Translations under genes and position numbers: made by a program
Notes under the pieces: generated by a model
What the model was told of the DNA's origin: nothing
The model's input: the letters and a program-made list of their open reading frames with translations, nothing else
Database searches by the model: none
In this document: positions 31,875 to 37,058 of the stretch, in pieces
How positions within the stretch are numbered: position 1 is the stretch's first letter
Layout: the number at the start of each line of letters is the position of its first letter
Assembly: GCA_002189035.1 (NCBI GenBank)
Contig: CM007989.1
Coordinates: forward strand, 1,302,001 to 1,366,000
DNA length: 64,000 nucleotides
Reading direction: 5' to 3'
Origin: Utricularia gibba
Taxonomy: Eukaryota > Streptophyta > Magnoliopsida > Lamiales > Lentibulariaceae

Positions 31875-33061
31875 CTAATGCTTCTTACAAAGGCCAAGAA
31901 ACACAACTGCAGATGAGACTTGCACTCGAAGATCAGCAATATCAACGTCATGCCCACCTTCCACCAATCCCCATTTATCAATCTGCAAATCTTCCTCCAG
32001 CCTAATCAGTTCAATACCCTGTTCTATGCTTAGCCTGCCCCGAAAGATTGCTACTGCTATCATCAACGAGTGCGCCACTGAGGCGATGGCGTCGATTGCA
32101 GCTAGTTCACAATCATCGGTCTTCTTGAGGACATTCTCAATGGCCTTCGTCAGACCTTCCTCCTGTTTGCCCCCAAAGAAGCTGGTGTATACAGCAGGCC
32201 TGTACCTGAATTCTGATTCCACCCATTTGAGAAGGGGACTGAACTTCTCCACTTGAAGTTCTACATATGATCGGAAGGAAAAAAGCTCATGTGAATGGAT
32301 AGGGGGTGAAAATTCAAGACACTAGTTCATGTGCAAGCAGATAAAAAATGTCAAATATGTAACTCTTGCATTTGATACCTCGGAGATCACTTGTGAGGTC
32401 GCTGTCTCTCGGGGCACGAACAAAGACCAGATCTTGATTGAATTTTTTCATCAAATTCTCAATGATTTTGTTTCTAGTGAGTGGCACTCGTTCAAATGCA
32501 GTACAGGCGAGCTTCATCAGAGGCATTGTGAAAGGCCGGATTCCATCTGTTCGCTACTAGAACATTAAGATGCATCACAATTTTGCTCCAAAACGCGGAA
32601 ATCTAAAGGGCGTGGAATCAAAGAAAATAGGTTCAACGCACCTGATACTCCCATTCAGCTGCAATTGCTTTAGCAAGGGCTAAAGTTGGGCACCTGAGAT
32701 TCTTCTTCGATGGAGTTTTCAGTGTTCTGTAATCCAACATTACATACCATCCAACTCCATCTTCAGCTTCTCTAGTCGTCGCCTTCTTGTAAAATCGCTT
32801 CCCAACAATTGAACCCGTCATGAACGACATTGGCATCGTCACCGCAGAGGCTGATTTATCCGGCCCTTTTATGTGGATGGCTTCATCATGACCCGAAGCC
32901 GAGCCCCCCGAATCGACTGAAGAAAAGGTGAAAGATGAAGTTTCATGATGGGAGCCACCAGTTGCGGCGGCGGAGCTGAGGTTTAGACGGCCGAAACCGA
33001 ATGCCCTACCGACGTGTATCCTTTGATTTTTTAGGGTTTTTCTGCACAGGAGAGACGCCAT
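31875..33061 (-). CDS. ATP12: ATP12-like F1-ATPase assembly chaperone (ATPAF2)
   Basis: ATP12 binds the F1 alpha subunit in mitochondria and is needed to assemble ATP synthase. Three exons give 326 aa: 32642-33061, 32379-32553 and 31875-32260. The N-terminal 60 or so residues are rich in R, S and A, like a mitochondrial presequence. Family stretches include GKRFYKKATTRE, GWYVMLDYRTLKTPSKK, AIAAEWEYQ, DGIRPFTMPLM and a WGLVEGGHDVD segment near the end. I chose the ATG at 33061. An in-frame TTG two codons upstream is not a likely start. The gene diverges from a small plus-strand ORF 281 bp away and shares its promoter region. Confidence 0.9.
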
Positions 33062-33341: not shown

Positions 33342-33527
33342 ATGGCGGGCATCGTTCACGAGATCGAAGAAAAACTAGGATTCCACGATCACAAGCACCA
33401 CGAAGAGGAGAAGAATTATTGGAAGAATGATTCGTGGATAAGGTCAAGGACAAGAGACATTGCCGAGGGCGAGCATTCCAAGGACGGCGAGAAGAAGCAC
33501 GCCGACGGCGACGAGCATCCACCATGA
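33342..33527 (+). CDS. Small dehydrin-like ORF (KS-type remnant?)
   Basis: The 61-aa ORF starts MAGIVHEIEEKLGFHDHKHH and ends in a H/K/D/E-rich tail (GEHSKDGEKKHADGDEH). Both ends resemble small KS-type dehydrins, hydrophilic stress proteins that begin MAGxxxKI and have one lysine-rich K-segment. In this ORF the middle (WIRSRTRDIAE) is not dehydrin-like. The neighbouring frame of the same DNA, about 33433-33456, encodes FVDKVKDK, a good match to a K-segment core. Two compensating one-base changes, one on each side, would explain this. The protein as written may therefore lack its membrane-binding helix. It shares a short divergent promoter with ATP12. The family call is moderate. Confidence 0.55.
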   Translation: MAGIVHEIEEKLGFHDHKHHEEEKNYWKNDSWIRSRTRDIAEGEHSKDGEKKHADGDEHPP

Positions 33528-33959
33528 CCATAACAGCAGCGATCGCGATTAGGCGGCGGTCGTCACTCTTGATTCGACCGTCTACTGTTTTTATCTAATC
33601 AAGGCATGTCGTCTCTCCCGAAATTGTCATCTCATCGCCAGTATCAGTATTCTGTGATCTGCGAATGGATTACTTCCTGGTTGGTTTTCAAGTAGAAGAT
33701 CGGTCGGTATCTATACTATCGGGAGTAAAAATGGGAAGGCTATTGTGCCCTTTCTTTTCAGTGCTGCGCTTGCTGGCAGATTCACAAGAACTCTTTCCTT
33801 ACCTTGCACGATAACGGAATCCGATTCCGATCGACAGTTTTTTTGGATCGCGTTCAGTCTATTGCATAATTGGACAGGATATTATTTATTATATCGAGAT
33901 GGGATAAACATAAATAGCTTAATAATATATTTTCCACTTCTTTTTATTTTCCAAAAAAC
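33528..33959. other. Gap between the dehydrin-like ORF and CDC26
   Basis: This holds the 3' end of the small ORF and the promoter of CDC26-TTM3. It becomes AT-rich toward 33960. No other gene is seen. Confidence 0.5.
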
Positions 33960-33967
33960 TATAAATA
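33960..33967 (+). promoter_or_regulatory. TATA box of the CDC26-TTM3 unit
   Basis: TATAAATA lies 68 bp upstream of the CDC26 ATG. A start site about 30 bp downstream would give a leader of about 40 nt without any ATG. There is no second TATA-like element between CDC26 and TTM3. Confidence 0.55.
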
Positions 33968-34027
33968 TGGATCGTGTCTGCCGAAGCCCAAGGCCGTAGT
34001 AGGGTAAAGCTTAGGGCTGGAAGCGAA

Positions 34028-34222
34028 ATGCTGCGCAGGAAGCCGACAAAAATTGAGATCAGAATCGAAGACAAAGAAGAACTCGAAGAAGCCCGTAAAC
34101 GCGCCGCCGCTGCTGCCACCACCGTGTCTTCGTCCTCCACATCCACCGCTTCTTCGCTCCTCCACTACTTCGATCGCTCATCCGCAGATCCCTCTTCCAA
34201 ATCCCACCGGATCGGCCTCTGA
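34028..34222 (+). CDS. CDC26: CDC26, anaphase-promoting complex subunit (first cistron)
   Basis: CDC26 is a tiny subunit of the APC/C ubiquitin ligase; its N-terminus threads into the TPR superhelix of APC6. The 64-aa protein begins MLRRKPTKIE and continues with an acidic helix (EDKEELEEARKR) and alanines, as in plant CDC26, then a serine-rich tail. I chose the ATG at 34028 because the family starts MLRRKP; an in-frame ATG-free extension upstream is open but unlike the family. Its stop is only 43 nt before the TTM3 start codon, and the two frames differ. In Arabidopsis CDC26 and TTM3 are reported to be made from one bicistronic mRNA, and the same arrangement is seen here. Confidence 0.88.
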   Translation: MLRRKPTKIEIRIEDKEELEEARKRAAAAATTVSSSSTSTASSLLHYFDRSSADPSSKSHRIGL

Positions 34223-34265
34223 TCAGTCTCAGTCTCCAATCACCACCGGCCCTCGAGAACTGCCG

Positions 34266-34877
34266 ATGGAGATCGAGGTGAAGCTCCGTCTCGTCAGCAA
34301 ATCCGGACATCAGAAGCTCCTCTCCGCCCTATCTCCGTTCCTCGTTACTACTCACCATCAACGTAACGTCTTCTTTGACGGATCCAATTCCGAGCTCTCA
34401 TCGCGGCGAGCCGTTCTTCGTATTCGTTTTCACGAGGAACCCGAAAGCCCTAAATCCTTCCTCTGCCTCAAATCCAAGGCCGTGATCGCAAATGGTGTGA
34501 GCCGCGCTGAGGAAGATGAAGAAGAAGTAGATCCTGAAACCGCGATGGCGTGCGTGGAGGATCCGCAGAGGCTGCTCAGCGTGGATTGGAGGGTCTTGAG
34601 GAGAGTGAAGGAAGAATTCGGCGTGAAATCAGGGTTCGTTGGCTTGGGGGGATTCAGGAACCTGAGAAACGTGCACCAGTGGAAGGGACTGAAGCTGGAG
34701 GTGGATGAAGTGAAGTATGAATTCGGCGAAATGCACGAAGTCGAGTGCGAGAGCTTGGAACCGGAGAAGGCTAAGGGGATGATCGAAGAGCTTTTCAAGG
34801 AGAATGGGATCGACTATTTCGACTCTGTTATGTCTAAATTTGCAGTCTTTCGAGAAGGGAAGATCCCATTCCCATAG
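34266..34877 (+). CDS. TTM3: TTM3, triphosphate tunnel metalloenzyme (CYTH domain; second cistron)
   Basis: TTM3 is a CYTH-fold phosphohydrolase; the Arabidopsis enzyme cleaves tripolyphosphate with a metal cofactor. The 203-aa protein starts MEIEVKLRL, which contains the signature ExExK. Basic and acidic tunnel residues follow in RAVLRIRFHEE, CLKSKAV and GLKLEVDEVKYEFG, where the ELEVDE-type strand is typical. The size is normal for the family (about 200-210 aa) and there is no intron. No ATG exists between the CDC26 start and this start. Translation could therefore rely on leaky scanning past the CDC26 start or on reinitiation after CDC26. The gene converges on the sucrase/ferredoxin-like gene. 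Confidence 0.9.
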   Translation: MEIEVKLRLVSKSGHQKLLSALSPFLVTTHHQRNVFFDGSNSELSSRRAVLRIRFHEEPESPKSFLCLKSKAVIANGVSRAEEDEEEVDPETAMACVEDPQRLLSVDWRVLRRVKEEFGVKSGFVGLGGFRNLRNVHQWKGLKLEVDEVKYEFGEMHEVECESLEPEKAKGMIEELFKENGIDYFDSVMSKFAVFREGKIPFP

Positions 34878-35261
34878 TTACATCTGGTGTAACTTACACC
34901 AGACGAGGAAGTCTCCCTGTTTTGCATTTCAAGCACAGACTTTGAATTCCAATGTGCTCCTTTCAATTCATTTTCTAGACCAGGAGAGCATTCAGATGTA
35001 AGCAACAGAGAAGTACCAATGGAAACTAAAGAAACCAGTCACAAACGTAAGCAACAGAGAAGTACCCATTGAAACTAAAGAAGCCAGTCACAAATAAATG
35101 CAAGCAACAGAGAAAAGCACTCATACTCAATAAGTGTTGTGTGAATAAGCTAAGGTGTAGTTTGCTTCATGGTGACACAAGGATTATTTGTAGCGGACCA
35201 GGAGTACAAGGTCCATATGTCTAGTATAGAGACAAAACATGGGATCGTAAGCGGCAATGCC
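34878..35261. other. Gap between the converging TTM3 and sucrase/ferredoxin-like genes
   Basis: This holds two 3' ends and a 49-bp tandem repeat. No ORF of interest. Confidence 0.55.
34998..35095. repeat. 49-bp tandem duplication with a partial third copy
   Basis: Two adjacent 49-bp units (34998-35046 and 35047-35095) start GTAAGCAACAGAGAAGTACC and differ at a few bases. A third copy breaks off after about 15 bp near 35102-35116. It probably lies in the 3' UTR of one of the two flanking genes. Confidence 0.75.
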
Positions 35262-37058
35262 TTACCTCGTTCTGTGGAAGGAAGTGTGAGCCACCACTAG
35301 AACAGCCGCCACTACGCCAACTACGGCCAAAGATGTAAGAACATGGTGCTGCTCCCATTTTGTGAATAGTTTTGTCTTGATTGATTTCAGGTTTTCGGAT
35401 TTGCACCATGAGGAGCCGCCGCTAGCTGCTTGGCAACAACCCCGAGTCTTCTTTTCAGTGTCATTGGGTTTGTCGACCATGCAGCATGAGGAACCATTCG
35501 CCCCTTGGCAGCACCCGCCCTTCTGCTCGGTGTCAATGAGGGGAAGCTGCTTTTCTGTCCCGTTCGCGATGCTAGAAAGAGTCACCTCATCGACCTTCTC
35601 AGGTTCAGCCGTGGGTGCACCCATTTGGCCCCTACGATTACCACAATGCAACTCGTTTGAAAACAGTTAAAATATTTTGAAGGTTAGTAGAAAATGAAAA
35701 ATAAATGATCTTCAACCTCCAGAGGCGTCTAACCACTTCCCCCTGTATGATTTGCTTCTCAATTATCTCAAGCACATCATCGGGTGTCACGTATCCATAC
35801 CTGCACAAGTATATTATGTAAACATTTATGAAGTTCTGGACTGATAAAAAAAAATTGTGAAGTTCTAGATGCAACAAAGAACAGAAATTTGTAATGAAAC
35901 TTGGGCACCCACCAGTTTCCAACAGTATTTTTCTCGGCATTTGCAGAAAAAATAATGATGTTGCCTGCGTACTTATGTCCTCCTATATGTGAACAAGCAG
36001 TCACTTGTAACGACTGCTTCACGTCCTTGGCATAAGCCACCTCCTTAAATTTTTCAATGAGTAGAGGGCCGCAAACACCACATCTTCGATCTCTGTTATT
36101 GTGGCAACAAACAAACACATAGGCTCCAGTCAATACTTCTCCCTTTCCACCAGTCCATTCGTTGCCGCGTACAAGCACATCGTCAACAAAAGTTTCCACA
36201 TCTGAGTCCTTCAACCCCCTTTAATACGATTAATGAAGAAAGGTGATCACAGATGAAGTCAGCAAATAAACGGAACACAGCATAGAACAGAAAGAGACAG
36301 CGACTACCTGTAAAGAATGTTGTCTGGAAAAACTAGCACATCCCCATCAGCCAATCCCACATCATCTCCGCCCTCACATATGGTCAAGCGAGCCTATTCA
36401 GAATATAAGCACAATTTTTTGAAGAGGAAAAATCACTCTACACACAAGCATAATAAGAACCTAGAAGAGGGAAAGCAAGGAGTATACTACATCAAGCGAC
36501 CATAATGGGGCTTGACTCATTTCACATTACTCAGCAAGCAAGTAAAAAGTATTTCCAACTTTCAAATGCTAATAACCAGATAAAAAATTGAATATTTGGC
36601 ATCGAAATTCATTAGCAGGCTATACAACATTATTTAAGCAAAAAATCCTATTTTTTAAGCTAGAAACACTGCACACATAAGAATGAGAAATATGCCCAAC
36701 CAATACTAGCTTGTTCTTCCTACGGAGTCTAAAACCCATGATTGCGTTCAAACTCTAGGGTTCGTATTGAGTAATTTTCCGCAATTTCAGAACCACAAGC
36801 TCTATGAGACGGTACCTTGGGAGAGATTTCGTTCTTGCGAGATTTGAGAGCAGATGCAAACAGCTTCGGAAGTAGATCGGAATCCGAATCCTCGACGCGC
36901 GCAGGCCACGCCTCGTGAGACTTGTAGCAGAGGAACACGTGTCGGTCGTACGGGTCAACGGTTCCAGCCAAGGGGCTTTGATACATCTCCGGTCGTTTGA
37001 AGCCGTATTTGACCTTCTCGTCCTCGGTCCCGGGTAGGTTCTCGCCGTCTCCAGCCAT
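35262..37058 (-). CDS. Sucrase/ferredoxin-like protein (Apd1/Aim32-type [2Fe-2S] thioredoxin-like), tail-anchored
   Basis: Five exons give 362 aa: 36816-37058, 36308-36393, 35913-36218, 35717-35800 and 35262-35631. The family has a thioredoxin-like ferredoxin domain, and its yeast relatives Apd1 and Aim32 hold a [2Fe-2S] cluster with two Cys and two His. Matching motifs are CGVCGP (Cys156, Cys159) and HIGGHKYAGN (His187, His191). A final hydrophobic stretch near residues 337-354 looks like a tail anchor. Before it are two cysteine-rich patches (GGCCQG...SSCC and RGCCQA...SSWC). The start is the first ATG in frame, at 37058. The stop TAA overlaps a possible splice donor (AG|GTAAGG), so a further 3' exon cannot be excluded. 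The redox partner is unknown. Confidence 0.85.

Follow-up and report, generated by a model that had tools for sequence, protein, structure and literature searches.

A CDC26-TTM3 gene pair in Utricularia gibba, a likely orthologue of the dicistronic plant gene, and a second TTM3 without CDC26

Introduction

In Arabidopsis, the gene At2g11890 carries a short upstream ORF encoding CDC26, and a 2012 list places it among putative dicistronic transcripts, in CPuORF homology group 30 (HG30; PMC3426882). According to later papers that discuss Lorenzo-Orts 2019, one mRNA gives both proteins, of which CDC26 is essential; plants in general share the arrangement, and TTM3 aids the translation of CDC26 (PMC7943633, PMC6973038, PMC11062462, PMC9768141, PMC11892635). 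One of these papers describes the arrangement as conserved into green algae (PMC11892635). In those algae, changes to the start context of the first ORF alter output of the second ORF inversely, as leaky scanning predicts. CDC26_TTM3 is among the Chlamydomonas bicistronic loci in that paper and, in the parts we cite, is not among the mutated loci reported (PMC11892635).

The length of the first ORF bears on how a second ORF can be reached. A commentary states that in plant reporters reinitiation occurs mainly after uORFs shorter than 20-30 aa and that a uORF of 50 or 70 aa abolishes it; for uORFs longer than 60 codons, the loss is put elsewhere at 30-80%, not total (PMC9786829).

Here we describe a CDC26-TTM3 pair in Utricularia gibba. 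Throughout, "the window" is the whole 64-kb stretch of DNA that was analysed. A first-pass annotation of the window had reported the gene pair and proposed how its second protein is made; its observation is confirmed, and its interpretation is partly supported.

Results

CDC26 and TTM3 are encoded in tandem

The two ORFs lie on the same strand in different frames, CDC26 first, and the coordinates first given for them, including the 43-nt gap, proved exact to the base (Table 1). Their proposed identities also hold. The Pfam model ANAPC_CDC26 (PF10471) matches the first ORF with an E value of 4.3e-9 and 37.6 bits, above its cut-off of 24.5 bits, and the N terminus of the protein aligns with the human-type CDC26 of structure 3hym (E 7e-4). 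The second ORF matches the Pfam CYTH model (E 1.8e-20), and its residues 1-201 match the TTM3 structure 5a5y (E 6e-64). A protein search with CDC26 returned 48 relatives, and those with names are plants. For the window TTM3, the closest named relatives among the best 120 of 316 matches are Lamiales. As had been claimed, neither ORF requires an intron.

We searched the genome (100.09 Mb in 516 contigs) for both proteins. The sole CDC26 recovered, by protein query at E up to 10 and by Pfam model search, was the one in the window; both searches were six-frame and ignored introns, so a strongly split CDC26 gene could escape detection. Scanning viral contigs for the CDC26 pattern gave 426 matches, none of which was confirmed. 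With two real proteins and the sole CDC26 found in the genome, the gene pair is beyond chance.

Table 1. Coordinates of the CDC26-TTM3 locus in the window
Feature	Position	Strand	Basis
Presumed TATA box, TATAAATA	33960..33967	+	Only TATA[AT]A in 33401-34300
ATG and 10-codon ORF, stop TAG	33967..33999	+	Sequence; ATG at -61 from CDC26 start
Predicted leader, ~38 nt, 0 ATG	33990..34027	+	Position of the TATA box
ORF 1, CDC26 subunit of APC/C, 64 aa (+ stop)	34028..34222	+	ORF call, Pfam, structure match, relatives
Spacer, 43 nt, 0 ATG	34223..34265	+	Sequence
ORF 2, TTM3 (CYTH-domain triphosphate tunnel metalloenzyme), 203 aa (+ stop)	34266..34877	+	ORF call, Pfam, structure match, relatives
AATAAA, possible poly(A) signal 3' of TTM3	35093..35098	+	Only AATAAA in 33901-35300; function presumed

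The pair also occurs together elsewhere. In Rhododendron griersonianum and Cinchona calisaya the two proteins have consecutive locus tags, and in Thalictrum both rows lie on 67-kb contigs of equal size. In Malus domestica, one annotated protein (P0064) has CDC26 fused to TTM3, possibly through a predicted splice across the CDC26 stop.

Elements flanking the two ORFs

The first-pass annotation had assigned the locus one TATA box. It is indeed the sole TATA[AT]A in the upstream interval scanned, but the motif is common in the window, with 75 copies on the plus strand and 71 on the minus strand (about one per 850-900 nt per strand), which makes the box at 33960 a weak point of the layout and its function presumptive. 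Judged from the position of this box, the leader would be short. The 10-codon ORF begins on the final base of the box and would not be in the mRNA if transcription starts near 33990. A motif scan found neither TATA[AT]A nor AATAAA between the CDC26 and TTM3 ORFs. Leader and spacer RNA were folded once, as a 341-nt stretch at -88.9 kcal/mol without a shuffle control, and this fold carries no weight in what follows.

Near the presumed start site, between 33985 and 34020, AGCCCA and TTAGGGCT are present, which we take to resemble two elements known from promoters of growth-related plant genes, site II and the telo box. The upstream neighbour, on the minus strand, encodes an ATP12 chaperone, and its first part lies at 32633-33061 (Pfam ATP12, E 8.7e-15). 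A 61-aa ORF at 33342-33527 (MAGIVHEIEEKLG...) has no Pfam match; its product, in our estimation, resembles a short dehydrin. Convergent with TTM3 lies a Cys-rich ORF on the minus strand (35262-35624) with a hydrophobic stretch at its C-terminal side and no Pfam match, and the stop codons of the two are 384 nt apart.

The absence of ATGs largely reflects the CDC26 protein

Between the two start codons there is no ATG over 235 nt (34031-34265), as originally stated, where base composition predicts 2.03. This absence had been taken to favour leaky scanning or reinitiation, an argument to which we give little weight. No ATG was present in 11.6% of 20,000 dinucleotide shuffles of the 235 nt. When the CDC26 body was recoded synonymously (20,000 draws), none appeared in 88.6% of draws with uniform codons and 97.4% with local usage (P 0.89-0.97); recoding combined with a shuffled 43-nt spacer gave none in 70.7% and 77.5%, respectively. 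Permutation of CDC26's own codons never produced one. Among overlapping 235-nt segments on both strands of the 64 kb, the CDC26-TTM3 region itself included, 25 of 2,714 are ATG-free, as are 6 of the 87 whose G+C falls in the same band as that of the region (0.55).

These results indicate that the absence is due largely to the amino-acid composition of CDC26. After M1, the protein of the window lacks M, C and W altogether, as well as any dipeptide of N/D/H/Y followed by V/A/D/E/G, which could yield an ATG across codons. The 48 listed relatives (48/48) together have no Met in the 3,045 residues after the first residue of MLRRK, along with 3 Cys and no Trp, and 26 of them carry one or two dipeptides able to yield an out-of-frame ATG. 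As a control, we counted Met in the first 63 residues of TTM3 in two best-match lists, finding 2 in 103 proteins and 1 in 113 after omitting rows without a recognisable M-E-x-E-x-K start (17/120 and 2/115).

Two candidate proofs of leaky scanning were rejected. In-frame Met depletion across plant CDC26 was set aside with the TTM3 control nearly as Met-poor, and ATG depletion at this single locus was ruled out by the shuffles and synonymous recoding. The ratio of observed to expected ATGs is 0 before ORF 2, 0.87 within ORF 2 and 0.39 in the first 235 nt of ORF 2. Before versus within ORF 2, this difference has the same direction as the medians reported for green algal bicistrons (PMC11892635). 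The ATG and Met pattern is thus compatible with leaky scanning without proving it.

The +4 base of both starts follows from the second residue

The plant start consensus is given as a purine at -3 and G at +4. Of these two positions, the CDC26 start is favourable at -3 (G, followed by C at +4) and the window TTM3 start at +4 (G, preceded by C at -3), while the TTM3 copy without CDC26 in this genome shows the fuller consensus, with G at both (GCCATGG). When compared to the weak-ORF1/strong-ORF2 context of algae, the window pair agrees at +4 (C vs G) but is reversed at -3 (G vs C). The start contexts of the window therefore do not clearly show that pattern.

Position +4 follows from the proteins. 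Residue 2 of CDC26 is Leu in 48/48 listed plant proteins, and among the 219 listed TTM3 rows with a usable start, 218 have Glu as residue 2 of M-E-x-E-x-K; because of these residues, +4 is C or T in CDC26 and G in TTM3. This Glu is the first of the EXEXK motif of TTM3 and is presumably metal-binding. The TTM3 rows (235 in all) were taken from the best 120 of 316 and the best 120 of 360 matches. A strict M-E-x-E-x-K start is found in 216, with 37 of those carrying an annotated extension before it. The remaining 19 comprise P0039 and P0117, which still begin M-E, P0265, which begins M-K-V-E, and 16 rows that begin at a later K, as if a prokaryotic gene caller had picked a GTG. In P0079, P0095 and P0103, an in-frame ATG lies 8-9 codons 5' of the usual TTM3 start.

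A second TTM3 lacks CDC26

At E <= 0.001 the genome has two TTM3 copies, the one in the window and one at G000:C328:2225207-2225809 (L002:1501-2103), which is 52% identical to it and starts M-E-V-E-V-K. Genome searches found no CDC26 alongside this second copy (hereafter C328). The CYTH model detects four genome loci: both TTM3s and two shorter matches above the cut-off, at G000:C328:2002885-2003325 (one TAG and one TAA inside) and G000:C413:4434887-4435018, which we take to be parts of other CYTH genes. For Arabidopsis, a review counts three CYTH/TTM proteins, TTM1-3.

There are five ATGs in the 235 nt upstream of C328 TTM3. We rejected this stretch as a clean upstream-ATG control, given a possible leader intron (donor GTGAGT at L002:1282, acceptor-like sites ending at L002:1376 and 1456). 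It may contain such an intron or a 52-codon in-frame extension.

We built a 103-row TTM3 tree from 100 rows hand-picked from the 235 listed, both genome copies and Arabidopsis. C328 TTM3 falls in a 42-row clade (99/85) with many core eudicots, Magnolia, Asimina and Stephania, where it is sister to a Genlisea aurea protein (100/94). All ten rows with evidence of CDC26 linkage lie outside that clade (10/10), and all four with evidence against linkage lie inside it (4/4: C328, the other Bertholletia contig, Cinchona 008229 and Erythranthe chromosome 4), with the evidence varying in strength between rows and the bootstrap of this tree not settled. The linked rows are the window copy, Arabidopsis (literature), Rhododendron and Cinchona (consecutive locus tags), Malus (fused annotation), Thalictrum and a 1,063-nt contig (short contigs of equal size), Medicago and Bertholletia (chromosome-size contigs of equal size only) and Erythranthe chromosome 10 (CDC26 observed in a sister species).

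A 49-row tree gave a similar division, with 11/11 linked rows outside the corresponding 21-row clade (94/94; core-eudicot part 97/93); its deepest fork is weak (65/49). Among the short CDC26/TTM3 contig pairs, those of 975 nt and 1,265 nt were dropped, the nearest relatives of their two proteins being in different plant groups, and those of 1,083 nt and 1,063 nt fit by nearest relatives. Of these two, the 103-row tree labels the 1,063 pair alone as linked, and the 49-row tree labels both. Because linked rows fall outside and unlinked rows inside the CDC26-free clade, the two kinds of TTM3 probably go back to an old duplication, with one copy behind CDC26 and the other free of it. In these trees, the CDC26-free TTM3 is a separate, widespread angiosperm lineage. 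Among the papers listed by our literature searches, none concerned such a lineage, judged by title and abstract opening.

The second TTM3 best-match list has a higher share of proteins with annotated N-terminal extensions than the first (29/113 vs 8/103, Fisher p 5e-4), a lead rather than a result because these are search lists, not clades, and the rows are related. The extensions are ~20-98 aa long and belong mostly to TTM3s of the CDC26-free type (P0188, P0195, P0199, P0207, P0210, P0218, P0241, P0253, P0258 and others). Many are R/S/P-rich and acidic-poor, like mitochondrial or plastid targeting sequences. In P0109, whose nearest copies are from Tetracentron and Thalictrum, 75 extra residues are annotated; by eye, they resemble a reading of a CDC26 in the TTM3 frame.

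Discussion

The Utricularia locus has the same two proteins in the same order as Arabidopsis At2g11890, with the short CDC26 ORF upstream, and the link first drawn to the published Arabidopsis bicistron (HG30, PMC3426882) stands. In Arabidopsis, a transcript, its translation and a mutant phenotype have been reported, whereas the Utricularia gibba locus is known from its sequence. The layout had been presented as very rare. Nuclear plant genes are not usually arranged in this way, but the CDC26-TTM3 pair itself is reported as the rule in plants and was for that reason to be expected in this genome. The locus is already known in kind and adds one species, whose genome is small, to a deeply conserved plant gene for two unrelated proteins.

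We consider it probable (about 0.7) that this locus is orthologous to the CDC26-TTM3 dicistronic gene known from plants, with one mRNA from which TTM3 is made mainly by leaky scanning. As orthology and anatomy suggest, a single promoter would give a single mRNA carrying both ORFs. The majority of ribosomes would initiate at the first AUG, yielding the APC/C subunit CDC26; some would skip this AUG, meet no further AUG for 235 nt and initiate at TTM3. Bicistrons of Chlamydomonas and Auxenochlorella described as using leaky scanning have few or no AUGs before ORF 2, as in the window, where the leader is probably short too (PMC11892635).

Leaky scanning and reinitiation had been offered side by side, but the length of the first ORF makes them unequally likely. 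Were TTM3 translated mainly by reinitiation after the 43-nt spacer, perhaps aided by TOR/eIF3h, the same bicistronic mRNA would serve and the lack of ATGs between the two starts would suit it; regulated reinitiation machinery exists in plants, and since the loss reported for uORFs longer than 60 codons is partial, some reinitiation may still occur (PMC9786829). However, CDC26 at 64 codons matches the length of the 50- or 70-aa uORFs that abolish reinitiation in plant reporters (PMC9786829), the spacer is short and the algal mutants argued against this route (PMC11892635), which together make reinitiation an unlikely main source of TTM3. We prefer leaky scanning because of that match in length; by this and by analogy with the published algal experiments, it would be the main route.

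It is similarly improbable that the locus is two packed transcription units, with a TTM3 start site within or just after the CDC26 ORF and a CDC26 mRNA that ends early or continues. The lack of TATA[AT]A and AATAAA between the ORFs, the single mRNA of Arabidopsis and an order conserved from algae to plants (PMC11892635) count against this arrangement, even though promoters without a TATA box exist and intergenic space is shortened in compact genomes such as that of Utricularia gibba. Least probable by far is an additional, N-terminally extended TTM3 made from a non-AUG start and read out of frame through the CDC26 region. Ahead of TTM3, its frame stays open for 86 codons (34008-34265), across the entire CDC26 ORF, and includes a CTG at 34017 whose context, GGGCTGG, is strong; but given the residues of CDC26 and local codon usage, an open frame over the CDC26 body is expected (P 0.68; with uniform codons, 0.12).

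Returning to one mRNA read by leaky scanning, we tentatively suggest, with more doubt than belief, that the order of the two ORFs was pre-set by their proteins. A Met-free CDC26 with Leu2 followed by a TTM3 with Glu2, and the +4 bases that these residues set, may suit leaky scanning without selection for it, and the CDC26-free TTM3, which accompanies it in the same genomes, may represent the released state. If so, a CDC26 AUG would never have G at +4 and a TTM3 AUG always would. The CDC26-free TTM3 may then gain upstream ATGs or a leader intron, and N-terminal extensions resembling organelle-targeting sequences, additions that a TTM3 lying 43 nt behind CDC26 would hardly be able to acquire. 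With a TTM3 behind CDC26 and a TTM3 without it in the same genome, Utricularia gibba offers a contrast that makes the cost or gain of the bicistron testable.
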